From the IMG/VR virus record IMGVR_UViG_3300017714_000095, positions 1 through 30,367 of that record: a stretch of DNA of 30,367 nucleotides; one strand, given 5' to 3'. This stretch comes from a virus. The notes below the pieces were generated by a model. It saw only the letters and a list, made by a program, of their open reading frames with translations. It made no database searches and had not been told where the DNA came from. How positions within the stretch are numbered: the first letter of the stretch is position 1; each line of letters starts with the position of its first letter. This document shows, piece after piece, positions 1 through 26,576 of this stretch. The position numbers were made by a program, and so were the translations under genes.

Positions 1-657
1 CAAACAATACAAACAATCATCAATATAACTGAAACATCTTTGCTGTTTGCCATCTCCGTATATGATTGGTTGCTTACCTTGTAACATCCTGTTCAACATG
101 ATTGACATCACGTTTCTAAATGGATCGTCATACTTCTGTCTTGGGCCAACAATGTTGTGTGGGACAGCGATAACATACTCTACTCCGTGTGTTTCACATA
201 AGTTTCTTAACACATCTTCGCCGGCTTTCTTTGCAATACCGTATGGATCTTGGGGACGACACTCGTAAGTTTCTTTGTATGGCATCTCATCATGATGTCC
301 GTATCTTGCCATGCTAGAACAATATACAATACGTTTTACTTTGTTTCTTATGGCCGCCGTAATAGTTGTGACTGATGCTTCAAATATATTTCGTGTAACA
401 AGCACAGGTGAAAATACTGATAGTCCTTCGTAAGCCGTAGCGGCAGTATGATATACTATGTCACACCCTTCCATGGCTTTGGTCATATTTTCTAAATCGC
501 AACAATCCACTTGATGGAACTCTACATTCTGAGGAACATTATCTGTATAGCCGCCAATCATATTGTCATTACCGGCAACAGTATGACCTTCCGACAGCAT
601 TAAATCTGCTAAATGAGATCCTAAAAATCCTGCGACACCTGTTATAAAAATTTTCAT
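1..657 (-). CDS. NAD-dependent epimerase/dehydratase (extended SDR), 3' end cut by window
   Basis: Probably a nucleotide-sugar epimerase or dehydratase that supplies sugars to the neighbouring glycan genes. The 219 visible residues begin MKIFITGVAGFLGS, the GxxGFxG dinucleotide-binding motif of the Rossmann fold (residues 7-13). The SDR catalytic set is present: Ser114/115 (YCSSM) and Y139-x3-K143 (YGIAKK). A GPRQKY segment near residue 171 is typical of the GalE/RmlB-like substrate-binding half. The C-terminal part lies beyond base 1. It is last in a leftward cluster of four genes, 17 nt after the FkbM gene, with a late-like box just upstream. The family is clear; substrate specificity cannot be read from sequence. 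Confidence 0.9.
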   Translation of the reverse strand, partial: MKIFITGVAGFLGSHLADLMLSEGHTVAGNDNMIGGYTDNVPQNVEFHQVDCCDLENMTKAMEGCDIVYHTAATAYEGLSVFSPVLVTRNIFEASVTTITAAIRNKVKRIVYCSSMARYGHHDEMPYKETYECRPQDPYGIAKKAGEDVLRNLCETHGVEYVIAVPHNIVGPRQKYDDPFRNVMSIMLNRMLQGKQPIIYGDGKQQRCFSYIDDCLYCL

Positions 658-663
658 TTTTAG

Positions 664-671
664 TATTTAAA
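664..671 (-). promoter_or_regulatory. Possible late-promoter box (TTTAAATA)
   Basis: On the minus strand TTTAAATA is followed by six bases and then the epimerase ATG. It resembles the T4 late -10 element (TATAAATA) and has the same close placement to the ATG as several other genes here. It sits in the short gap between two co-directional genes, so it may be chance AT-rich sequence. Confidence 0.35.
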
Positions 672-674
672 TTA

Positions 675-1301
675 CTACTTTTTGCGAAATACTTGATCTG
701 GCCATTGTTTAATAAGAGATTTGAATCCTAGCGACTCTAGATACTCTTCTATTTTACCGTTGCTCGAGCCATATTTTTTTGTGTTGTTGTTCAATTCAAT
801 CATAATGTATTGAACATCTTGTAAGGTTTTTTCTGCACCTTTCAATACCTCCATTTCATAACCTTCTACATCTATCTTTATTAAATCTATATCGTCTAGT
901 TCCAAACTATCAATAGTGACCATAGGAATAGATCCTTCTCCCATAACACGTTTGCTTTGTGTAAAATTGTCATCGGACAGTGATATTAATTTTTTTTCTG
1001 ATCCTATTGCAAGTTGGTGTGTCTCTACATTGTCGGGAACATTTTTGACTAAACATTCATAATGTAAAGCGTCTGGTTCAAATGCAATTACCCTTCCGCA
1101 AAATTTATTCATTGCTATACTCCATGTGCCTACCCATGCTCCTATATCTAAAATATGATTAAATTTTTTGTTTTCTGATTCACAGTGTTCGATAAAACGT
1201 AGCAAACATTTATTTTGTGTGAAAGGTTTGCCAGCTCTCCACTCTGCGATATGTATGTCGTTGCTTGGTACCCATACACCATTAATTTGTTCTATGCTCA
1301 T
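675..1301 (-). CDS. FkbM-family SAM-dependent methyltransferase
   Basis: Predicted O-methyltransferase acting on a sugar or glycan. The 208 residues carry the SAM-binding motif I as LDIGAWVGTW (51-60), an acidic ribose-binding strand ending in AFEPDA (73-78), and the FkbM signature IKIDVEGYEMEVLKGA (141-156). Length suits a stand-alone FkbM domain. Its ATG overlaps the stop of the upstream gene in an ATGA, so translation is probably coupled. It lies between a sugar epimerase and a glycan-transferase-like gene, which fits methylation of a surface or virion glycan. Members also methylate other substrates, so the target is inferred from context only. Confidence 0.9.
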   Translation of the reverse strand: MSIEQINGVWVPSNDIHIAEWRAGKPFTQNKCLLRFIEHCESENKKFNHILDIGAWVGTWSIAMNKFCGRVIAFEPDALHYECLVKNVPDNVETHQLAIGSEKKLISLSDDNFTQSKRVMGEGSIPMVTIDSLELDDIDLIKIDVEGYEMEVLKGAEKTLQDVQYIMIELNNNTKKYGSSNGKIEEYLESLGFKSLIKQWPDQVFRKK

Positions 1302-2110
1302 AGTAAACCTTTGTCTAGTAATATTTCAACTGCTTTACCGTTTTCAATTTCTTCCGGTGTGAATTGTTGATAGGCCAAACTGTAAAGCCAATCTTCACAG
1401 CCAACAAAGAATGGATTTTCAATGTCTGCAAGTTCTTGTCCACCAACTTCTTTGGCAAAACTTTTCTCATTACATATTACAGGTATGCCCATACATTGTG
1501 CCTCAACGGCCGCTATAGAACAACTTGTTACACATACCCAAGCGTCTTTGAGATCTTCTGATAAGGGAACCGTTGCTTCACTCGGTCCCGACGTTCCTCT
1601 GCCCCTAGGCTTGTGTCGAATTTTTATTGGTCTGTCTGTGTATCTTTTTATTTGTTCTACAATGTCGCTGGTCCAATTTGGTTTATCTAAATAATTGTGT
1701 ATGCCTGCCGAGCTAGGACATACCAACACGTGTCTGCCTTTGAAGTTGGGTGCTTTAATTTTAATTCCGAATTTATCAAATCTATCCGACTTACACATCT
1801 TGATGTACGATGCATGAATTTTGTTTCTGCAGATACGCCAATAATGATTGTCAGGTTTAAGATTGTTGTTATCAAATCTTCCAAAATAGGGAGTATCTGT
1901 GAACCAAAACTGATGCTTACGAGCTTCTAATTTTTTTACAAGTGGTAGATTGTTATTTACAAATCCCCAAAACATACTATTAGGCACAGGATCAATTTCC
2001 TGAGAATTATCTAATGTCTTTACCTGCTCCGGCCAAGATTTTTGTACACCGTCAAACACCTCCCATGCTTTTGATTTTTTGTTGTTATATGGTGCGTAGA
2101 TTGTTAGCAT
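1298..2110 (-). CDS. Glycan-transferase-like protein, paralogue A of four
   Basis: Unnamed 270-residue protein with three relatives in this window (starting at 4658, 5460 and 7339). All share a C-terminal block: a hydrophobic strand ending in S or N-S-(S/T/C), a GIPV-like turn, a conserved IENP or IETP, then a LAYxQ(F/W)TxxEIxxG ending. Here these read TSCSIAAVEAQCMGIPV, ADIENP and SLAYQQFTPEEIENG. The arrangement recalls GT-B transferases of capsule and Kdo type, where a small-residue strand near the C-terminus helps bind the sugar nucleotide. That assignment is by shape only. It overlaps the upstream SGNH gene by 26 nt and the FkbM gene by 4 nt, indicating one operon. Confidence 0.75.
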   Translation of the reverse strand: MLTIYAPYNNKKSKAWEVFDGVQKSWPEQVKTLDNSQEIDPVPNSMFWGFVNNNLPLVKKLEARKHQFWFTDTPYFGRFDNNNLKPDNHYWRICRNKIHASYIKMCKSDRFDKFGIKIKAPNFKGRHVLVCPSSAGIHNYLDKPNWTSDIVEQIKRYTDRPIKIRHKPRGRGTSGPSEATVPLSEDLKDAWVCVTSCSIAAVEAQCMGIPVICNEKSFAKEVGGQELADIENPFFVGCEDWLYSLAYQQFTPEEIENGKAVEILLDKGLL

Positions 2111-2750
2111 CTATAAATTCCTTTAATAACTTTGCCCATTCTAAATGACCTTCCGCAGACGGATGTGGGTCGTTTGGACTTACAATTAATTTTTTATCGG
2201 CAATAAATTCATAATGACTGACATTAGGACTAAAAAATCTTTTCATATTAATTGATCTTGCTATGACTTCAAAATCACTTACATCGCTTCGGAAATCATT
2301 TGGCAAAGCATTGTACATTACATATGGAATTTTTTTCCTTTCAAAATAATTTTGTAAATCAAATACATTATCTAGGAATGACATAATTGCATTGTTTTCA
2401 ATATCCCAGCCTTGGTTGTGCCTTATAAAACTTACATTGTCTAATGTTTTCCATGTTCGCCATGTCAACTCGCTATCTGGTATCCTACCCTTTTTCCAGC
2501 CGTCGTTGGTTACATAATCATTCCTGTGAGAGCTTGACCACCCAATTATTGCAAAGGTATCTTTACTGCTATTTTGCTCAAACCATAATTTGGTAGTAAA
2601 ACTGATCCTATCATTTCCTCTACCTCCCATAGCAAGATTAAATAGTTGTAAATTATATTCATCGGCTAAGATTTTTGTTACAAAAGTATCAACGTTATCT
2701 TTAGGACGGGCACCTAAGAAGCTACAACCATTGGAAAATAATTTGGACAT
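2085..2750 (-). CDS. SGNH/GDSL-type hydrolase
   Basis: Predicted esterase or acyltransferase-like enzyme that could remove or move acetyl groups on glycans. The 221 residues show the SGNH blocks: nucleophile Ser10 in NGCSF, a Gly/Asn block GGRGND (42-47), and the C-terminal catalytic pair in D194-P-H196 (NDPHPSAEGH). There is no signal peptide, so it probably acts in the cytoplasm. It is first in the leftward glycan cluster and is divergent from the GT61 gene across a 29-bp gap. Its ATG has no Shine-Dalgarno sequence but stands 5 nt after ATAAAATA. Confidence 0.8.
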   Translation of the reverse strand: MSKLFSNGCSFLGARPKDNVDTFVTKILADEYNLQLFNLAMGGRGNDRISFTTKLWFEQNSSKDTFAIIGWSSSHRNDYVTNDGWKKGRIPDSELTWRTWKTLDNVSFIRHNQGWDIENNAIMSFLDNVFDLQNYFERKKIPYVMYNALPNDFRSDVSDFEVIARSINMKRFFSPNVSHYEFIADKKLIVSPNDPHPSAEGHLEWAKLLKEFIDANNLRTI

Positions 2751-2771
2751 ATGACTATTTTATAGTATAAT
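2743..2771 (+). promoter_or_regulatory. Sigma70-type promoter for the glycan operon
   Basis: TTGGAC (-35, 2743-2748), 17-bp spacer, then a perfect TATAAT (2766-2771). The ATG of the GT61 gene follows after only 8 nt and has no Shine-Dalgarno sequence, so the predicted transcript starts at or almost at the ATG. Confidence 0.6.
2756..2763 (-). promoter_or_regulatory. Late-like box 5 nt before SGNH ATG
   Basis: The minus strand reads ATAAAATA-GTCAT-ATG. With T4-like late spacing the transcript would begin at the start codon. The box shares the 29-bp gap with the rightward -10 element for the GT61 gene. Confidence 0.5.
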
Positions 2772-2779
2772 TATTAGAA

Positions 2780-3865
2780 ATGCAAACAGTTAAAAATATT
2801 ACCAGCCTAAAATACTTCCTTGAACGAGGCGAAACAGTGGACCATGAGTATGCATTTGATGTCAAATACCACAAAGATGCAAAAAGTCATTTCCATAGTT
2901 TACCTACGTTTGTTGCAGAATTTAAAAATTGTTCTGTTCATACCTTGCCTTTGTTGTTGACAGAGGACAGACACATGATAACAGACCATGTATGGCCATT
3001 ATTGCATAAAACAAAACACAAAGGAAAACAACACGGTCTATGGAACCATTGGGATGAAGAAATTGATATTGCCTTACCACCAATAACAAGACAATTCAAC
3101 GGTACATTCCAGTTTGTATGGTTGCCAATCGACGAGGCCAGTGCAGAAAATCCATGGCACATCTGGATAGATGTCATTTCAAAATTTAGATTATTAGAGA
3201 AAAGATGGAGTACTAATTTTGCCAAGTATGTTTATATTTTGCCAAATAGAAGCAAGTACTTCGACAAAGTCGTAAAAGAATTATTTCCGGAATTGAAATA
3301 TGAAGTGATGCCTAAAGGAGAGGTATGGAGGTTTCAACATCTGCTGGTACCGTCTATGAGTAACCATGACGACGGAGTTACTACACCACATCTAATTCCG
3401 TGGTTACGACACATAAAAGGTAGGTATGAAGTTCCCGAAACTAGAGATAGAAAAATTTACATACAACGACAAGGTGCAGTCACACGTAAGGTAAAAAATC
3501 ATAATGATCTGTTGTTAGCATTGAAAGGATGGGAGTCTGTTGCACTAGAAAAACTTTCAATAGCAGATCAAATAAAAACCTTTGCAAGTGCTAGTCATAT
3601 TTTAGCACCACATGGTGCTGGGCTTGTAAATCTATTATGGTGTAGGCAAGGTACAAAGGTAATTGAAATGCAAGATGCAAAAATGATACACAAAAAAGTA
3701 TACCCTGTACTATCACACCATTTAGGATTAAACCATGAATTGTATATCACTGATACTGTTCCTATAACCACCCAAGGAAAAGCCAAACCAAAAGGAGTAA
3801 AAAGATTCAATGATCTAATAGATTTCAATGTCAATATTCCAGATTTAATTAGACATTTAGATTAA
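2780..3865 (+). CDS. Glycosyltransferase family 61 (DUF563) protein
   Basis: Predicted GT-B glycosyltransferase of the GT61 type, which includes xylosyl- and GlcNAc-transferases. The 361 residues contain the family hallmark near the C-terminus, HILAPHGAGLVNLLW (273-287), followed by GTKVIEM (291-297). A strand with IYIQRQ (226-231) starts the second Rossmann half, as expected. No membrane segment is visible, so it is likely soluble. It is the first rightward gene of the island, expressed from its own sigma70-like promoter and followed 19 nt later by the oxygenase gene. Donor and acceptor sugars cannot be deduced. Confidence 0.85.
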   Translation: MQTVKNITSLKYFLERGETVDHEYAFDVKYHKDAKSHFHSLPTFVAEFKNCSVHTLPLLLTEDRHMITDHVWPLLHKTKHKGKQHGLWNHWDEEIDIALPPITRQFNGTFQFVWLPIDEASAENPWHIWIDVISKFRLLEKRWSTNFAKYVYILPNRSKYFDKVVKELFPELKYEVMPKGEVWRFQHLLVPSMSNHDDGVTTPHLIPWLRHIKGRYEVPETRDRKIYIQRQGAVTRKVKNHNDLLLALKGWESVALEKLSIADQIKTFASASHILAPHGAGLVNLLWCRQGTKVIEMQDAKMIHKKVYPVLSHHLGLNHELYITDTVPITTQGKAKPKGVKRFNDLIDFNVNIPDLIRHLD

Positions 3866-3878
3866 TTAAAAGTATAAT
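3850..3878 (+). promoter_or_regulatory. Sigma70-type promoter for the oxygenase gene
   Basis: TAGACA (3850-3855), 17-bp spacer, TATAAT (3873-3878), then 6 nt to the ATG at 3885. A typical 6-nt discriminator would place transcription start on the A of the ATG, and no Shine-Dalgarno sequence is present. Confidence 0.6.
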
Positions 3879-3884
3879 AAAAGC

Positions 3885-4658
3885 ATGTATTCTTTGTTGA
3901 ACAAAAAACCAAAACTAATAACAGATCCTTATCCACATGTGGTAATTGAAGAAGCATTACCTTGGGATCTTTATGAAAAACTTGAAAAAGAATTTCCAGA
4001 GAAAACACTTCTTGCCACAGAACCTTTTGACAACAACATATGTTATAGAATGAAAGCAGACAAATTACTTGATCCTTTGTTCGAATCAGAGACATGGCGA
4101 GAATTTGCAAAGTATCACACTTCAGCGGAATGGTTTATGGAAGTGTTTGAGTTGTTCAAGCCTTGGCTAGAAAACAAACCAAAACTAACAGACCTCATGC
4201 ATGACTTACCACATAACCTCGGTGCAAGAGGGTGGGCAGGAAAAGAAATAAATTTATGGAGTGATTGCCAAGTTGTAATGCACAAACCAATTACACAAAC
4301 TACTTCTCGTACTGCACACATCGACAATCCTATGGAAATGTTTGCTGGATTACTTTACATGCCGTACAAAGACGATGATAGTACAGGAGGTGATTTTCAA
4401 ATACACACTGTGAAGAATGATGTTAAAAAGGTAGACATGAAAGGCGGCAGACAAGTTTATGCAGAAGATTTAGGCGATGTACACACAACAGTTCCCTACA
4501 AAAGAAACACTTTTGTAATGTTTTGTAATTGTAATGCCAATACAGTGCATAGTGTATCTAATAGAATTAATCCAAAACTACACAGACGGAGTATTAACAT
4601 CATAGCAGAGTTTAGAAGACATTATGCAAAAATGTATGATGTGGAGGAAGTTAGATAA
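3885..4658 (+). CDS. 2-oxoglutarate/Fe(II)-dependent oxygenase
   Basis: Predicted non-haem iron hydroxylase. The 257 residues carry the H-x-D iron ligands in AHID (H145, D147), the distal histidine in NTVHSVSN (H222), and basic residues (R234, R235) placed to bind the 2OG carboxylate. Between them, a GLLYMPYKDDDSTGGDFQIH stretch has the usual jelly-roll strand and GG-D turn. The substrate may be a sugar or an amino acid; the position inside a glycan operon favours modification of a glycan or its carrier. The stop and the next ATG overlap as TAATG, so it is translationally linked to paralogue B. Confidence 0.88.
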   Translation: MYSLLNKKPKLITDPYPHVVIEEALPWDLYEKLEKEFPEKTLLATEPFDNNICYRMKADKLLDPLFESETWREFAKYHTSAEWFMEVFELFKPWLENKPKLTDLMHDLPHNLGARGWAGKEINLWSDCQVVMHKPITQTTSRTAHIDNPMEMFAGLLYMPYKDDDSTGGDFQIHTVKNDVKKVDMKGGRQVYAEDLGDVHTTVPYKRNTFVMFCNCNANTVHSVSNRINPKLHRRSINIIAEFRRHYAKMYDVEEVR

Positions 4659-5470
4659 TGCACTATGGTGTTAGAACCAATAGGCCTATTACTGAGAAAT
4701 ATGTAGAAGCGGCCGCTAAAGGTATGAATGCAAATGTAGTTGCACATACAGATATTTTACAATCCGAAAACTGTGACAAGGTAGTATTCATGGGAGTGCT
4801 GAGGGGTACTCATTTGGTATACAAATGGGCTCAAGAAAATAAAAAAAACTTTTATTACATAGATAGACCATACTGGGGGGAGAGTAGAAAATCTCCGTAT
4901 TGGATGAGATGTGTAAAAAATCAGCATGTCAAAACATTTAAAGATCATAAACCGGATGATAGATTCAAGGCCACATTCAAAGATGATATAAAACCATTCC
5001 ATAAAAATGGCAAGTATATTTTGGTTGTACCGCCTAGTCATGCCATGGCAGAAATGTTTGACGGGAAGAATTGGCTTGATGATACATTAAATATTTTAAA
5101 GAAACACACAGATAGAGAATTAGTGATCAGAGAAAAACCATACAACCCACCAGCAGTTATAGACGATAAAGGCCAGATGCAACCGGGACAAAGCGAAAAC
5201 AATCAACCAAGTAAACCATTTGAATGGGAAAAGGTCCATGCTGTTGTGACATTTAACAGCTCGATCACAATTAAAGCATTGACAAATGGTGTGCCTGTTT
5301 TTGCAAACTTTGATAATCCATGCCTACCAGTGGCAGAACAAGATTTCAGTAAGATAGAAACACCATTGTATGAAGATCCTAGGCCGGTATTTTATTCCTT
5401 AGCCTATGGACAGTTCACACAACAGGAGTTTAGAAGCGGATATTATTTGGAGGTATTAGATGGACGTTGA
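4658..5470 (+). CDS. Glycan-transferase-like protein, paralogue B
   Basis: A 270-residue relative of paralogue A, identical in length to it. Shared features are an aromatic N-terminal motif YYIDRPYWG (A has FTDTPYFGR), a central LVIREKP corresponding to A's IKIRHKPRGRG, and the C-terminal series VVTFNSSITIKAL, NGVPVFA, KIETP and SLAYGQFTQQEF. This supports one fold and probably one type of reaction with different substrates. The start is fixed by the TAATG overlap with the oxygenase. It overlaps paralogue C by 11 nt. GT-B-like transferase is an inference. Confidence 0.75.
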   Translation: MHYGVRTNRPITEKYVEAAAKGMNANVVAHTDILQSENCDKVVFMGVLRGTHLVYKWAQENKKNFYYIDRPYWGESRKSPYWMRCVKNQHVKTFKDHKPDDRFKATFKDDIKPFHKNGKYILVVPPSHAMAEMFDGKNWLDDTLNILKKHTDRELVIREKPYNPPAVIDDKGQMQPGQSENNQPSKPFEWEKVHAVVTFNSSITIKALTNGVPVFANFDNPCLPVAEQDFSKIETPLYEDPRPVFYSLAYGQFTQQEFRSGYYLEVLDGR

Positions 5471-6443
5471 AATTTTTAGAAGAACAGTCAAGGACAGAAA
5501 GAGAGGAGCAAGTTACGATCTATTACAAGACATGGCTACCGGCATTCGTGCCTGTGGCGACAACCCAATAATTGTAAATGAAAATAAAACCGGTCCATGG
5601 ACAGACAACGAAATGGAGCCTACTGCACCTATTGGATGTATGTTTGGGTATGGCGGCACTAATCAGTTACACCATACAAAAGGTAGAAGGAGAGATCTTG
5701 TAGAACGTGCAAAGAAAAAAGGCATCTATATTATTACTTTTGACGGAGGTATCTTATCTAGTTTTGGTAACACAGTAACACACCCTAAACATCATTGGCG
5801 TGTTGCTTTGTACTCTCCGATGAACAACGGCAATTTTTTAAGTGACAACTCACCTCCGGATAGATGGGAAATGATGAAGAAGCTATGGAACGTACAATAT
5901 AATCCGTGGCGTAAATCAAATCCAGAAGACCCTATACTATTTGTATTGCAACCAAAAGACAACTGGAGCATGAACGAACTTGATCCAATAGATTGGTTTA
6001 ATGACGTATATAAAAAAATTAGGCCACTCACTAGTAGAAAGTTTTTGGTTCGACCGCATCCTAATCATGTTGCAAAAATGGAAAGTAGAAAAGACGAATT
6101 TCCTAAAGATGTAGAAGTTATAATTGGACAAAAGTTTTTTGAAGGAGATGAAAAAAAGTACTACAGATTCAACTACCAAGATGCTTTAAATAATTGTCAT
6201 GCTGTTGTTACTCACAATTCTACTGCCTGCATCGACTCTTGTGTTCGTGGAATACCTACCTTTTGCACCTCAGATCTTGCACTTGCTTGGCCAGTAGCAA
6301 ATAAAGATTTAAACAAAATTGAAAATCCAGAATATCCTGACAGAGATCAATGGGTATACGATATCGGGTATAAGCAATGGACGAATGAAGAAATTATAAA
6401 TGGAACAGTTTTTAAAAGATTTAAGGAAAAACTTGGATTATGA
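5460..6443 (+). CDS. Glycan-transferase-like protein, paralogue C
   Basis: The longest paralogue at 327 residues. It keeps the central FLVRPHPNH motif and the C-terminal VVTHNSTACIDSCVRGIPTF, KIENPEYPDRDQW and YKQWTNEEIINGT. The R-P-H-P motif is seen in Kdo/capsule-type GT-B transferases (KpsC/KpsS-like), where His and Arg contact the CMP-sugar; calling it that here is inference. It overlaps B by 11 nt and the next gene by the ATGA of 6440-6443, so the operon is continuous. Confidence 0.75.
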   Translation: MDVEIFRRTVKDRKRGASYDLLQDMATGIRACGDNPIIVNENKTGPWTDNEMEPTAPIGCMFGYGGTNQLHHTKGRRRDLVERAKKKGIYIITFDGGILSSFGNTVTHPKHHWRVALYSPMNNGNFLSDNSPPDRWEMMKKLWNVQYNPWRKSNPEDPILFVLQPKDNWSMNELDPIDWFNDVYKKIRPLTSRKFLVRPHPNHVAKMESRKDEFPKDVEVIIGQKFFEGDEKKYYRFNYQDALNNCHAVVTHNSTACIDSCVRGIPTFCTSDLALAWPVANKDLNKIENPEYPDRDQWVYDIGYKQWTNEEIINGTVFKRFKEKLGL

Positions 6444-7342
6444 AAATAAAAGTTATTACATCTTATAAGCCGGGCACATGGGAATCATTTGCAAAACGTG
6501 GAGTACAATCCATGCTAGATCATTTCCCAAACAATATAGATATCACAGTGTACAACGAAGAACCAAAACCAAATTTTGATAACGAAAAAATTACTTGGGT
6601 GGATCTAAACAATGCAGAACCAAAATTATTTGCTTTTAAAAGTAAACACAAAAACGATCCTGTAGCATGTGGACAGCTCGAAGAGATTCCGGGAGGTGTT
6701 CGTAGATCTGAAAAACTTAAAACAGGTGGTGGCAAAGATGCCAACAAAGGTTCGTTTCTTTGGGACGCAGTAAGATTTTCTAATAAAGTATTCAGTGTTA
6801 TAAATGCTGTACGTAACTCAGAAGGATACGACTATGTAGTCTGGATAGATGCAGATACATTTACGTTCAGAGATGTTCCGTTAGATTTTTTAACAAATCT
6901 TTTACCTGCAGATACAATGTTGACTTATTTAGGAAGAGAACGTTTTCAGTTAAACGACGGCGGAAAGTATCCTGAATGTGGATTTGTAGGATACAATCTT
7001 AAACATCCTAAAATACAAAACTTTGTAAACGACTGGGAAGAACTATACAATACTGATAAAGTTTTTGAGTTACTAGAGTGGCACGACTCGTATGTATTTT
7101 GGCATCTTACAAAAAAATATCAAAATGAACAAAACATAAAAGTAAACGACATTGGTTATGCTAAAGGTGTAAAAGGGCATCACGTATTTGTTAATAGCGA
7201 ATTGGGACTATACATGGATCACTTAAAAGGTAAACGTAAAAAAACAGGCACTAGTGCAAAAAATGATCTACGTCCAGTGAGAAGCGATGCTCCTGCCGAT
7301 GTGTCACAAATTGATTATTGGAAGAATAGACCTGCGTCATGA
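6440..7342 (+). CDS. GT-A type glycosyltransferase
   Basis: Predicted retaining or inverting transferase with a nucleotide-sugar fold. The 300 residues begin with a short strand (KIKVITSY) and have YDYVVWIDADTF (130-141), whose D137-x-D139 is the metal-binding DxD motif. A later GFVGYNLKHPKI is typical of GT8/GT32-like proteins that build glycans from a bound nucleotide sugar. Insertions rich in Gly/Lys near residues 85-103 are probably loops. It overlaps both neighbours by 4 nt in ATGA. Unlike the flanking paralogues it is not GT-B-like, so the operon combines both folds. Confidence 0.8.
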   Translation: MKIKVITSYKPGTWESFAKRGVQSMLDHFPNNIDITVYNEEPKPNFDNEKITWVDLNNAEPKLFAFKSKHKNDPVACGQLEEIPGGVRRSEKLKTGGGKDANKGSFLWDAVRFSNKVFSVINAVRNSEGYDYVVWIDADTFTFRDVPLDFLTNLLPADTMLTYLGRERFQLNDGGKYPECGFVGYNLKHPKIQNFVNDWEELYNTDKVFELLEWHDSYVFWHLTKKYQNEQNIKVNDIGYAKGVKGHHVFVNSELGLYMDHLKGKRKKTGTSAKNDLRPVRSDAPADVSQIDYWKNRPAS

Positions 7343-8214
7343 GAATAAGTGTTTTCACACAATACGGTCCACTTAATTCAAAACCTATCTTTGATGCGTT
7401 CATTCATAGCCTCAAAGAAGACGGGCAAGAAGTAATTGTAGACAAAGAAGAAAATTCAGATGTTGCTGTAATTTGGTCAGTGCTATGGCTTGGCAGGATG
7501 TCCGGCTACAAACAAATATGGGAAAAATTTAGAAATCTTGGCAAGCCTGTTATAGTGATAGAAGTTGGTGGACTTTCACGTAACATAACTTTTAAGTTAG
7601 GCATCAACGGAATTAACAACGATGCCGATTTTGCCAATCAAGATTTTGATGACAAACGATGGCCTATGTTAAACAAAACTTTAAGACCATGGAATCCCAC
7701 AGGCGACATGATTGTAATATGTGGACAACACGATGCCAGTGAGCAGTGGAAAGGACTTCCAAAAATGCAACAATGGATTGAACAGCAAATAAAAGAAATA
7801 CGACAATACACCACTAGACCAATATTGGTTAGGCCTCATCCTCGTAATCATTTTAATCTAGATGAAGGGAAGTATAATAACGTCAAAGTCAGATTACCTA
7901 AAAGGGATTATAATACCATTGATGATACAGATTTCAAAGCCACACTTGACAGGACATGGGCAGTTGTCAATCACAGTTCTAATCCTGCAATGGAGGCAGT
8001 GTTCGCAGGCATTCCTGTTTTTGTTTCTAAATCTAGTTTGTGTTTGGATGTTGGCAACACAGAACTACGTGACATCAATAATCCTGCTATGCCAAACAGA
8101 GTACAATGGGCACAGAAATTGGCCTACACAGAATGGCGAGAGGATGAAATACGAGCAGGGCAACCATGGAAAAGAATTAAAGGAAGGTTAGTTGAAAAAT
8201 ATGCAAAAAGTTAA
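7339..8214 (+). CDS. Glycan-transferase-like protein, paralogue D
   Basis: A 291-residue relative of A to C. It shows a central ILVRPHPRNHF (compare FLVRPHPNH in C), then AVVNHSSNPAMEAVFAGIPVFV, INNPAMPNRVQW and LAYTEWREDEIRAG. C and D look closest to each other because both keep R-P-H-P and the extended PxRxQW segment. The N-terminus has a strand-helix-strand start (ISVFTQYGP) that could be the first Rossmann half. It overlaps the preceding gene by ATGA and the following gene by about 14 nt. Confidence 0.75.
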   Translation: MRISVFTQYGPLNSKPIFDAFIHSLKEDGQEVIVDKEENSDVAVIWSVLWLGRMSGYKQIWEKFRNLGKPVIVIEVGGLSRNITFKLGINGINNDADFANQDFDDKRWPMLNKTLRPWNPTGDMIVICGQHDASEQWKGLPKMQQWIEQQIKEIRQYTTRPILVRPHPRNHFNLDEGKYNNVKVRLPKRDYNTIDDTDFKATLDRTWAVVNHSSNPAMEAVFAGIPVFVSKSSLCLDVGNTELRDINNPAMPNRVQWAQKLAYTEWREDEIRAGQPWKRIKGRLVEKYAKS

Positions 8215-8965
8215 TTTACGTACACAGGCAGATCCGTTCCCACAGATAGAATGGACACAATACAAAGGCGAAACCATCATTGTCAAAACAATCATAAGGA
8301 AGGGAAAGAAAATTCAAGAGACTGCATTCTATGAAGACAAAGTCAAAGCAGTGCCTAGAGGTAATGCTTATATTATTGGTAACGGTCCTTCACGTAAAGG
8401 TTTTGATCTAAATGTTCTAAAAAATACAGGACAGACATACGGATGCAACGCATTGTACAGAGATTTTTGGCCAGACTATATATTTTCTGTCGATACACAG
8501 ATGACATCAAAAATGTGCGAAGATGAAGTCGGACTAAAGACTGTACACTATGCACCATCTCTTGAAGTCAACAGGAAACAAAACAAGGACATGTTAAACC
8601 TAATACCTAACAATCCACATTGGATATCGGGTAACGCGGCTATGTGGACAGCCTGTGTGCATGGACACAAACATATTGTATTGTTGGGTTTTGAATTTAG
8701 AGAATATGGAAAGGGCCAACAGAACAACATCTACCAAGACACAGACAATTACGGACCGAGGACTAGCGATACAATTTTTGAAGGTTGGTTACGGCAATTT
8801 AGAGGATTGCAAAAAATGAGACACGACTGCAAGTTTACAGTTGTACATGACAATCCACCGGATTATTTAAAAGTATGCAATCCTGCATTCGAGGATGGAA
8901 GCAATAGATTTGAGCTGTTAAACTATAAAGAATTTAACGATAAAGTCTTAAACCAGCAGACTTAA
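8201..8965 (+). CDS. GNGPS-motif protein, DUF115/GT42-like sugar transferase candidate
   Basis: A 254-residue protein with AYIIGNGPSRKG (56-67) followed by QTYGCNALYRDF (78-89) and YIFSVD (93-98). The order GNGPS, then a CN-x-x-Y strand, then a DTQM segment resembles the CMP-binding region of bacterial sialyltransferase-like (GT42) and DUF115/Maf proteins, so it may use a CMP-activated sugar. That is inference. I start it at the ATG; a TTG nine bases upstream sits closer to the AAGGAAGG ribosome site and is an alternative. It ends the rightward glycan operon and overlaps the convergent SprT-like gene by 32 nt. Confidence 0.72.
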   Translation: MQKVNLRTQADPFPQIEWTQYKGETIIVKTIIRKGKKIQETAFYEDKVKAVPRGNAYIIGNGPSRKGFDLNVLKNTGQTYGCNALYRDFWPDYIFSVDTQMTSKMCEDEVGLKTVHYAPSLEVNRKQNKDMLNLIPNNPHWISGNAAMWTACVHGHKHIVLLGFEFREYGKGQQNNIYQDTDNYGPRTSDTIFEGWLRQFRGLQKMRHDCKFTVVHDNPPDYLKVCNPAFEDGSNRFELLNYKEFNDKVLNQQT

Positions 8966-22587: not shown

Positions 22588-22662
22588 TGGTAGTCCCTAG
22601 GAGAATCGAACTCCTCTTTGCGAGATGAAAACCCGCTGTCCTAACCGATAGACGAAGGGACC
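22588..22662 (-). tRNA. tRNA-Glu (anticodon TTC)
   Basis: Cloverleaf read from the reverse complement: acceptor GGTCCCT pairs with AGGGACT, anticodon stem GCGGG/CTCGC closes a loop TTTTCAT with anticodon TTC, and the T arm AGGAG-TTCGATT-CTCCT is intact. The CCA end is encoded. It reads codons GAA and GAG. The first base pair is G-T, a small departure from the usual G-C. Confidence 0.93.
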
Positions 22663-22738: not shown

Positions 22739-22814
22739 TGGTGCCGCTTCACGGATTCGAACCGCGGACCTACTGATTACAAATCAGTTGCTCTACCAAC
22801 TGAGCTAAAGCGGC
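22739..22814 (-). tRNA. tRNA-Thr (anticodon TGT)
   Basis: Cloverleaf on the reverse complement: acceptor GCCGCTT/AAGCGGC, D arm GCTC-AGTTGGTA-GAGC, anticodon stem ACTGA/TCAGT with loop TTTGTAA and anticodon TGT, T arm CGCGG-TTCGAAT-CCGTG. The CCA end is encoded. It reads ACA and ACG. Both tRNAs have an encoded CCA. Confidence 0.95.
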
Positions 22815-22966: not shown

Positions 22967-22994
22967 TTGACAATGCATAAATATTTTGTATAAT
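22967..22994 (+). promoter_or_regulatory. Perfect sigma70 promoter with embedded late box
   Basis: TTGACA (22967-22972), 16-bp spacer, TATAAT (22989-22994), followed 6 nt later by ATG. The spacer contains CATAAATA (22976-22983), a T4-late-like box, so one site may serve both early and late transcription. The sigma70 start would fall on the A of the ATG; the late start would lie about 11 nt upstream. Confidence 0.7.
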
Positions 22995-23000
22995 ATTATT

Positions 23001-23186
23001 ATGAGAGACACAAAACTATTACAGACATATCGCACAAAACAGATGCGTGAACAAAAAGAGAGGCAACTGCAAAGACACCTGCGTAAAGAAGTAGAGACGG
23101 GTGCGAGTGGAACTCAAAAGTATGTAATAAAGTCAGGTACCAATGCCGGGAAGATCGCAGAAGGCTTCCAAAAAACCCAATCATAA
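23001..23186 (+). CDS. Small basic protein, 61 residues
   Basis: Begins MRDTKLLQTYRTKQMREQKE and continues as a highly charged, probably helical protein with a glycine-containing tail (GASGTQKYVIKSGTNAGK). No ribosome site is present, but a strong promoter ends directly before the ATG, supporting this start over the TTG 15 bases upstream. No family recognised. Confidence 0.6.
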   Translation: MRDTKLLQTYRTKQMREQKERQLQRHLRKEVETGASGTQKYVIKSGTNAGKIAEGFQKTQS

Positions 23187-23229: not shown

Positions 23230-23445
23230 ATGAATAAAGAATTCGAAAGGTATCTTATTGTTTTTCTATTGTTGATATTGATAGGAATGTCTGGCTGTGT
23301 GAAGAAACACATAGAAGCAGATCATCCTAAACAACCAACTACATTAGATACTATTACAAAACTAGATGCTATTGCAAATGTGTTAGGATGTATGTTTGAT
23401 CCTGCACCGTGTCAAAAACAAAAAGAAAAGGAAATGAAAAAATGA
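23230..23445 (+). CDS. Putative lipoprotein
   Basis: A 71-residue protein with a hydrophobic N-terminal segment (YLIVFLLLILIGMSGC) ending in a lipobox-like cysteine (C22), followed by a polar tail rich in Lys, Asp and Pro. It fits a membrane-anchored lipoprotein exported to the periplasm. Its stop overlaps the next ATG in an ATGA. Small phage lipoproteins include o-spanins in lysis modules, but no paired i-spanin is obvious. Confidence 0.65.
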   Translation: MNKEFERYLIVFLLLILIGMSGCVKKHIEADHPKQPTTLDTITKLDAIANVLGCMFDPAPCQKQKEKEMKK

Positions 23446-23558
23446 TTGAATGCGTATGCGAAAAGTGTAGTTGCGAATGCCACTGCAAATCATCATGCCT
23501 CGAATGTTTAGACTGTCCTGATTGTGTTTGTAAATGTACCAAGGATAAAAAGGATTAG
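23442..23558 (+). CDS. Cys-rich peptide, metallothionein-like
   Basis: A 38-residue open frame whose start overlaps the lipoprotein stop. Twelve of the residues are cysteine (positions 4, 6, 9, 11, 13, 15, 19, 22, 25, 28, 30, 32), arranged mainly as C-x-C and C-x2-C, with one histidine (H14) and acidic or lysine residues between. Such density and spacing are typical of metal-thiolate proteins such as metallothioneins. I do not recognise a specific family. The absence of aromatic residues also fits. Possible roles are binding zinc, copper or cadmium, or buffering redox, but this is inference from composition. Confidence 0.55.
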   Translation: MIECVCEKCSCECHCKSSCLECLDCPDCVCKCTKDKKD

Positions 23559-23576: not shown

Positions 23577-23654
23577 ATGAACATTAGATTTACAATACTG
23601 TTGTTTGTTTTGTTGGGATTACTTGCTGTGTTTGGTGGTCCACCCGGGTATTAA
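23577..23654 (+). CDS. Micro-peptide with one membrane segment
   Basis: Twenty-five residues: MNIRFTILLFVLLGLLAVFG, then GPPGY. A strong GGAGG ribosome site stands 8 nt before the ATG. A single hydrophobic helix implies an inner-membrane micro-protein. It ends 4 nt inside the convergent gene. No function assigned. Confidence 0.5.
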   Translation: MNIRFTILLFVLLGLLAVFGGPPGY

Positions 23655-23965
23655 ACTTCTAATCTATTATCAGAAAAATTTAACCCTTGTAACTCTTTGG
23701 GTTTGCCTTTTGGATATGTTGGCTCAATCCGGAACTCTTCACCTGTTTGATCGTTCTTGCAACCTGCCACGAGCCAATCCCATTTGAAGTCTCCGTCATT
23801 AACAAATTCCCATAACACATCGTAGGTATCTCTAACAGGATCTTTCAGCAACAGTTCTTGTTTGCATTGTTCCATTGTATCAAATGTTCTTTGCATTTGA
23901 AATGTTTGTTGAGTTTCAATAGGAGATTGTCCTATCATGTAAGCGAGAATTAAAATTTTGTACAT
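23651..23965 (-). CDS. Unrecognised protein, 104 residues
   Basis: Begins with a short hydrophobic stretch (MYKILILAYMIG), then a polar body with two cysteines (C34, C69) in MEQCKQEL and VAGCKND, suggesting an exported protein that forms a disulfide. A DGDFKWDWLVAGC segment has several aromatic residues. Its ATG overlaps the preceding stop in a TAATG, so the leftward genes here are coupled. No known family seen. Confidence 0.6.
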   Translation of the reverse strand: MYKILILAYMIGQSPIETQQTFQMQRTFDTMEQCKQELLLKDPVRDTYDVLWEFVNDGDFKWDWLVAGCKNDQTGEEFRIEPTYPKGKPKELQGLNFSDNRLEV

Positions 23966-25450: not shown

Positions 25451-25980
25451 CTTTGTTTAGTTTGGAAATAAGAATAACTTGTTAATCTTTGCACAGTTTC
25501 TGGTACTTTGTTTTCCATGCCGTGCATCTGTTTATCATTGTTGAACATTATGTAGCCTGTGTTTTTATTGAAATCAAATGCTTTCCTTATCTCGTCGCCT
25601 TCGTAAAATACTGTTCCTAAATCCTTTGGTGCATCTGACAAAAATATCTGCATCACATAGTCTATACCGTCATTGTCCAAATGCTTTGGGCAATCAAAGT
25701 CATGATAGTCTAACCAAAATCTTGTGTCAATCTGTGTGATTTCCAATCCAGTTGCCTTGCTGATTTGTTCTCTGTTATCGTTGTAATGATCTGCAATAGA
25801 TTGTAGTGTGCTACCAGGCATGGGCATCAGACGTTTCCTGTTCCATGTTTCCTGCCATTCCTGTTTTGTGTATGGCAATTCTTCTAACACCTCATGGGAT
25901 AATTGTTGAATCATTTCATCAGTGAGTATCTGATCCACCAAGAACAAATCCTTTTTATCATCCACAGGAGTGATGTGCAT
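25447..25980 (-). CDS. Prolyl-4-hydroxylase-like 2OG-Fe(II) oxygenase
   Basis: Predicted iron hydroxylase of 177 residues. The ligand pair is H100-x-D102 in KHLDNDGID, with the distal H153 in QMHGM; RLTSYSYF beyond it offers the 2OG-binding arginine (R165). Between the ligands, VMQIFLSDAPKDLGTVFYE matches the P4H jelly roll. I start it at the ATG that overlaps the clpP stop (TAATG); the longer frame upstream is a shadow of clpP. Viral P4H-like enzymes can hydroxylate peptides; the target here is unknown. It shares the clpP transcript. Confidence 0.8.
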   Translation of the reverse strand: MHITPVDDKKDLFLVDQILTDEMIQQLSHEVLEELPYTKQEWQETWNRKRLMPMPGSTLQSIADHYNDNREQISKATGLEITQIDTRFWLDYHDFDCPKHLDNDGIDYVMQIFLSDAPKDLGTVFYEGDEIRKAFDFNKNTGYIMFNNDKQMHGMENKVPETVQRLTSYSYFQTKQR

Positions 25981-26576
25981 TAGTTGTCTTTGTTGTCTTC
26001 TTCTCTGCTGGAAACTATCTTGTCCACCAAGCCATAAGCAACAGCCTCTTCGGCGTTCATGAACTTGTCCCGTTCCATGTCGTCCTTCAACTTGTCCAGG
26101 GGTTGTCCTGTGTGCTTCTCGTATATCTCTGTCAGCTCTTTCTTCCATCTCAACAGTTCGTTGGCTCTGATCTCAACATCTGTGGCTTGTCCCGAAGCAC
26201 CGCCCAGTGGTTGGTGTATCATGTGTCTGGCATGTGGTAGCATGAATCTCTTGCCCTTGGTACCTGCCGAGGCCAGTAGTGATCCCATGGAACAGGCCTG
26301 TCCCATCACTATGGTCTGTATGTCGGTGCTGATGTACTGCATGGTATCATATATTGCCATACCAGCAGTCACCAGACCACCAGGGGAGTTTATGTATAAT
26401 GTAATGTCTTTCTTGCTGTCCTGCGATTCGAGAAACAACAGTTGGGCACACATCACTGATGCTGTGTGTTCCTCTATCGGTCCTTCCAGTAGGATAATTC
26501 TGTCTTTTAATAATCTAGAGAATATGTCGTAACTTCTCTCGCCCTTGCTTGTCTGTTCTATTACTATTGGTGTCAT
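25980..26576 (-). CDS. clpP: ClpP-like serine protease
   Basis: Forms a barrel-shaped protease, usually fed by ClpX or ClpA. The 198 residues show the full catalytic triad: S96 in GQACSMGS, H121 in MIHQP, and D170 in MERDKFM. Other ClpP landmarks are INSPGG (62-67, oxyanion loop) and [11 protein letters not shown] (123-133). It begins [23 protein letters not shown], without a long propeptide. A phage copy could process head proteins or shift host proteolysis. Strong sigma70 promoter upstream, stop coupled to the oxygenase start. Confidence 0.93.

Follow-up and report, generated by a model that had tools for sequence, protein, structure and literature searches.

Animal metallothioneins consist of an alpha domain, in which 11 Cys hold four Zn, and a beta domain, in which nine Cys hold three Zn, each domain being about 30 residues long. 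Bacterial metallothioneins bind three to four Zn(II) ions, often with the help of His ligands, and in SmtA a zinc-finger fold is formed around one metal site (PMC10612145). For phages, no relevant paper on metallothioneins was found in the open-licence literature, and a review from 2024 on the small proteins of phages mentions neither metal nor zinc nor cysteine (PMC11323111). Here, we analysed a linear IMG/VR virus contig of 30,367 bases, the whole of which is referred to as the window, and in particular a gene at positions 23442-23558 on the plus strand, which codes for a Cys-rich microprotein of 38 aa.

The product of this gene, MIECVCEKCSCECHCKSSCLECLDCPDCVCKCTKDKKD, contains 12 Cys, one His and no Phe, Trp or Tyr. 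Its ATG (23442-23444) shares bases with the TGA (23443-23445) of the preceding lipoprotein gene, so that both the clean, aromatic-free frame and the ATGA start (23442-23445) described in the original prediction are borne out by translation and coordinates. With 12 Cys per 30 residues it is the densest in Cys of all stop-free frames in the window; in 300 windows of 30 kb simulated with a first-order Markov model, the maximum was nine Cys per 30 residues and usually six. The protein has the small size, the Cys fraction (about 20-35% in this class), the C-x-C/C-x2-C composition and the scarcity of aromatics that characterise the functional class of the metallothioneins. By inspection of alignments, no signal or leader sequence precedes the Cys core, the first Cys of which falls at approximately residue 3-10, which does not fit a secreted disulfide-rich peptide or a RiPP precursor.

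A first homologue search returned six viral loci with 65-69% identity, and an alignment search of IMG/VR confirmed 183 stretches. The expectation that relatives would keep the Cys spacing held, as the pattern C-x2-C-x-C-x2-H-C-x3-C-x2-C-x2-C-x2-C-x-C(-x2-C) was present in at least 119 IMG/VR stretches when spacing was the only search term. Family members are 35-48 aa long with mostly 10-12 Cys, exactly ten in 132 of the 143 distinct proteins read, and a simple core-identity rule clusters them into 26 representatives. There are two main paralogue groups, A and B, which often occur in tandem. The 183 stretches form group A, with the consensus MIKYICExCGCEQHCKxSCTECxDCPDCxCKEC; group B, the MEEPRKICHRCNCDPHCDESCSNCEKCDHCDCDRCLERAF type, was found at 63 loci, keeps the spacing of A and often lies directly upstream of it. 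Alignments place the family-core ligands of the window protein at Cys 6, 9, 11, 15, 19, 22, 25, 28 and 30 and at His14, with its last Cys, Cys32, one position away from where most relatives have theirs; the 10-Cys family core is supplemented by Cys4 and Cys13. The window protein is a divergent member of the family: its start, MIECVCEKCSCE, recurs slightly altered at four loci (L358, L296, L314 and L299), where the related subfamily MIECVCEKCSCEHHC... also has Cys4. The lack of aromatic residues is not a family trait, as only 17 of the 143 distinct members are free of Phe, Trp and Tyr and most relatives have one or two aromatics, mainly a Tyr or Phe ahead of the first Cys. At one locus, L317, a minus-strand ORF (reverse-complement positions 2173-2442) encodes an in-frame B-A fusion of 75 residues and 21 Cys, the second module of which could still start alone from an internal Met. 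A fusion to a larger protein at L101 and L105 was rejected, since the long upstream frame merely overlaps another gene; the product there probably starts at an internal Met.

The comparison of synonymous with nonsynonymous change was in favour of the original prediction. The median dN/dS is 0.09 in group A (72 distinct coding sequences) and 0.15 in group B (32 sequences), and at the core Cys codons TGT and TGC alternate to saturation with zero nonsynonymous change. Because homologues were found with Cys patterns, the Cys invariance of the broad set is partly a result of how its members were selected. Loci were therefore fetched by a 186-aa protein encoded upstream of the Cys gene, and this test, which picks by the guide protein and not by Cys, is the only one free of the effect. 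All 80 best-matching loci, which are close relatives with 88-100% guide identity and thereby limit the reach of the test, carry intact Cys copies just downstream, one copy in 52 and two copies in 28 of them; frame disruption in close relatives, which would speak against the original prediction, was thus looked for and was absent from these loci. When the most divergent members are aligned (40 rows), conservation is confined to the ten Cys, the last at 90% or more, and the His; this is as expected if the ligands are the constraint, although it partly reflects the selection by Cys patterns. One might regard the ORF as a product of chance without a protein, as it has just 38 codons and most relatives of the surrounding cassette have no such gene, but the probability of this is negligible given a dN/dS far below 1, the 80 intact copies out of 80 in one group and the lack of any simulated equivalent, and for the family as a whole the dN/dS, 80-locus and simulation results refute it. 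The ORF represents a genuine gene of the phage, and selection acts on its protein.

The window carries T4-type replication genes, namely for UvsW-like and gp41/DnaB-like helicases, and among isolates it is closest to large phages infecting Rhizobiales and Pseudomonas, at about 50% identity. It also contains two tRNA genes on the minus strand, for Glu(TTC) at 22588-22662 and Thr(TGT) at 22739-22814, and a run of genes at 1-8965 that by eye resembles surface-sugar, glycosyl- and methyl-transferase genes. This T4-like phage further has a complete gene for the ClpP protease at 25980-26576 (minus strand; Pfam E 4e-83), which is also found in L009. The Cys gene is the last of a three-gene cassette of small ORFs, ahead of which lies a sigma-70 promoter that matches the consensus perfectly (TTGACA-N16-TATAAT; 22967-22994, plus strand); 0.08 such promoters are expected by chance in the window. 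The first gene of this presumed operon (23001-23186, plus strand) codes for a basic protein of 61 aa, MRDTKLLQTYRTKQMREQK..., which is common to L008 and L213. It is followed by the lipoprotein gene (23230-23445, plus strand; 71 aa, lipobox-like LIGMSGC), and in L008 and L215 too, the Cys gene is preceded by this lipoprotein gene. The 3' boundary of the site is formed by a convergent gene at 23651-23965 (minus strand) that encodes a 104-aa protein, MYKILILAYMIGQ.... In L008, which was found through the lipoprotein, the Cys gene is at exactly the place it has in the window, and a sigma-70 promoter with the same hexamers, 16-base spacer and position is present at 5739-5766. L213, L214 and L009 represent the empty site: they have no Cys gene there, and the lipoprotein gene ends directly against the convergent gene for the 104-aa protein. 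Among 63 loci found by the convergent gene, only L215 has the family Cys gene beside it; at L225, another of these loci, the Cys-rich ORF is of a different kind and is located farther away.

Beyond this site after the small lipoprotein gene, shared by the window, L008 and L215, the family has two other recurring kinds of site, one downstream of the 186-aa gene, with an FkbM methyltransferase gene following, the other at the end of a virion structural protein of approximately 1,990 aa (phrog_5838; the 296-aa C-terminal part was tested). In 125 of the 166 copies, the start codon either overlaps the stop codon of the preceding gene or adjoins it; the gene is frequently added behind another gene without a promoter of its own. 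A T4-late-type promoter, TATAAATA, is present at just 4 of 159 copies, and a general late-promoter link was rejected on this count. The settings thus differ, from a sigma-70 promoter to structural genes and TATAAATA, and no single expression class backs one role. From the three recurring kinds of site, the empty sites and the isolated position of L215 among the 63 convergent-gene loci, we conclude that the Cys gene is accessory and has been gained or lost at sites that vary. The original prediction had held a phage-borne metal-binding micro-protein to be unusual; this was wrong, since marine viruses commonly carry the gene as an accessory.

The overlap of one group with the end of the long phrog_5838 protein raises the question of whether the microprotein is a virion component, produced along with the structural genes and built into the tail or neck as a small metal-bound piece. 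In S-CAM1, a protein related to phrog_5838 is followed by the neck genes gp13-gp16, and a Cys-rich ORF of another type sits between scaffold and capsid genes in pelagiphages. We nevertheless consider a virion role improbable. The copies of the window and L008 lie in a small-gene lipoprotein cassette behind a sigma-70 promoter, most relatives sharing the cassette lack the Cys gene, and in S-CAM1 and Atu_ph07 the homologous genes have no Cys gene next to them. As both these cassette relatives and S-CAM1 and Atu_ph07 are without it, the gene seems dispensable to the virion.

Homologues were sought widely outside the viral contigs. With the window, A, A-like and window-like sequences as tblastn queries, no true homologue was detected in isolate phages; none was found in plasmids, and an A3 pattern search found no relative in GTDB genomes. 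The spacing pattern gave 11 matches in 84,980 GTDB species genomes, ten of which were rejected as low-complexity or frame artefacts. The sole true match, L280 (NHCU01000032.1), is on a contig binned to a Betaproteobacterium MAG (TMED41), where the Cys gene is accompanied, as at the phage loci, by the 186-aa gene and the FkbM gene. Because of these two shared neighbours, we regard L280 as a virus contig; when the profile was run against 399 genomes from its phylum, 398 were empty and the one match was its own genome. The family thus appears to be virus-specific, as in our searches it was found solely in viral contigs. Searches for known families gave no Pfam metallothionein model for the window protein, its relatives or 40 aligned members, only noise in NCBIfam for 33 members and no metallothionein chain in the PDB at E <= 10. 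PHROGs gave no family match, the best weak one being phrog_24592 (unknown function; E 0.0085) for a single divergent member, L377, and Foldseek gave nothing significant for two models against the PDB and one against BFVD. The original interpretation was borne out in part: its gene call and its label metallothionein-like stand. Ligand-type spacing kept in distant relatives, strong purifying selection and the 10-12 Cys with an invariant His speak for them, and no known metallothionein family was matched; read from its sequence, the protein would be metallothionein-like in its working, yet lies outside every family tested (Pfam, NCBIfam, PDB; PHROGs weak at best).

With at least ten thiolates and a His within about 30 residues, the chain very probably folds only around metal. 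Since so dense a set of ligands is unlikely to be divided into separate sites of four, the predicted arrangement is a shared cluster of approximately three to four Zn(II) or more Cu(I). AlphaFold2 models, which were calculated without metals and call for cautious reading, reached a pLDDT of 76.5 and a pTM of 0.45 for the window protein and were compact and moderately confident for the group A consensus (pLDDT 84, pTM 0.54). High thiol content would also suit a thiol reservoir or a scavenger of copper or oxidants, which would act against oxidative or metal stress and not in zinc handling, and metallothioneins are reported to take a part in the defence against reactive species (PMC10612145). We judge this very unlikely, as the strict spacing and the invariant His indicate a defined metal geometry and not bulk thiol, and no recognisable copper or redox gene lies beside the Cys gene in the window.

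The core pattern implies a CCHC zinc-knuckle spacing in the first half of every member (C-x2-C-x4-H-x4-C; Cys6, Cys9, His14 and Cys19 in the window protein, residues 6-19), with further Cys interwoven and a second, all-Cys half following. This could point to a structural or regulatory zinc protein, in which the cluster merely stabilises an adaptor for a specific partner such as the host RNA polymerase, an RNA or the phage protein encoded by the upstream gene. The top PDB profile matches, although insignificant (E 1.3 or worse), are to CCHC proteins, HIV NCp7 and yeast Air2; overlap with the same upstream partner gene is frequent; and small phage proteins such as TraR homologues are known to act on the host RNA polymerase (PMC11323111). 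In addition, some non-ligand residues are invariant within the groups, Glu, Ser, Asp and Pro in group A and Arg and Leu in group B, and may reflect a binding partner rather than free buffering. This conservation is lost between groups A and B, however, the Cys count is twice what a knuckle needs, and Pfam scans of 40 members gave no zf-CCHC match at E <= 1. The upstream partners are also unrelated (the 186-aa protein, the approximately 1,990-aa virion protein and the lipoprotein), which suggests no common cognate partner. An adaptor function seems rather unlikely to us, yet it is the main rival reading, kept in play by the residues that are invariant within each group.

Instead, we favour, if with modest confidence, a virus-specific cytosolic metal-thiolate microprotein acting as a metallothionein-like buffer as the best explanation of the data as a whole. 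Whether it would serve as a buffer, sink or donor of metal at the time of infection, and not as a structural part of one complex, we consider an even call. In the proposed mechanism, the Cys protein would be expressed in small operons or as a promoterless add-on to other phage genes, would stay cytosolic and take up Zn(II) or Cu(I), and would then buffer or supply Zn or Cu that enzymes of the phage and the host release or require. More tentatively, we speculate that several lineages of T4-like marine phages have their own metallothioneins without a cellular counterpart and have repeatedly gained a mobile micro-gene of one or two modules, which might capture or reallocate the zinc or copper of the infected cell and possibly feed phage metalloenzymes or starve those of the host. 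If metal binding is true, phage infections in the metal-poor ocean would commonly involve the control of metal, exerted by a protein that is among the smallest metal proteins known. The unannotated, apparently virus-specific family offers a defined and cheaply made set of peptides, of which variants with one and with two modules occur naturally, and makes the management of host zinc or copper by phages directly testable; possibly related ORFs, here called type C, are present in phages of cultured Pelagibacter.

These type C Cys-rich ORFs (Eyrgjafa gp_29, Gjalp and HTVC041P), with their different spacing, reach only E values of 0.7-4, and their kinship with the family is tentative. They are closer to the ORF of L225, a type C microprotein with nine Cys and two His at 4875-4988 (plus strand), directly upstream of a ribonucleotide reductase-like gene; KT997847 matches the L225 ORF with an E of 1e-8. 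In cultured Pelagibacter podoviruses, type C-like ORFs are located between the scaffold and capsid genes (Eyrgjafa_gp_29). Among the other contigs, we noted by eye, on a viral contig (L015, 7390-8397), a row of genes resembling those for ferredoxin and for IscA (iron-sulfur assembly) and, on a phage contig (L106, 236-1282), a protein resembling a TctC-type tricarboxylate-binding receptor.

Compared with known systems, the phage family shares with the bacterial metallothioneins (SmtA of Synechococcus, Pseudomonas) its small size, its Cys-rich C-x-C/C-x2-C composition and a likely His ligand. In contrast to these, it is shorter (35-48 aa), has no Pfam or PDB sequence match and was found here on viral contigs only. 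The Cys spacing of SmtA differs from that of the phage family. A cluster of three to four metals with a finger-like first site, as in SmtA (PMC10612145), is nevertheless plausible for the family. The CCHC zinc knuckle of retroviral nucleocapsid proteins and Air2 recurs as C-x2-C-x4-H-x4-C in the N-terminal half of all members, but the phage family has two extra Cys inside this stretch and a second, all-Cys half. Similarly, type C (Eyrgjafa_gp_29, HTVC041P and the KT997847 ORF) is Cys-rich like A and B, with a C-x2-C...C-H-C start and a C-x-C-x2-C-x-C end, but has a different middle spacing and eight to nine Cys in its core motif, and is possibly related to them. Length, ligand count (ten Cys and one His) and Cys density are those of a domain of animal metallothioneins, from which the family differs by its conserved His, the absence of core Cys-Cys pairs and the lack of detected sequence similarity. 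Finally, the two-module version in L317, with its 21 Cys, is likewise similar to the animal proteins, and together with the tandem A and B copies this fusion resembles the multi-module build of metallothioneins.
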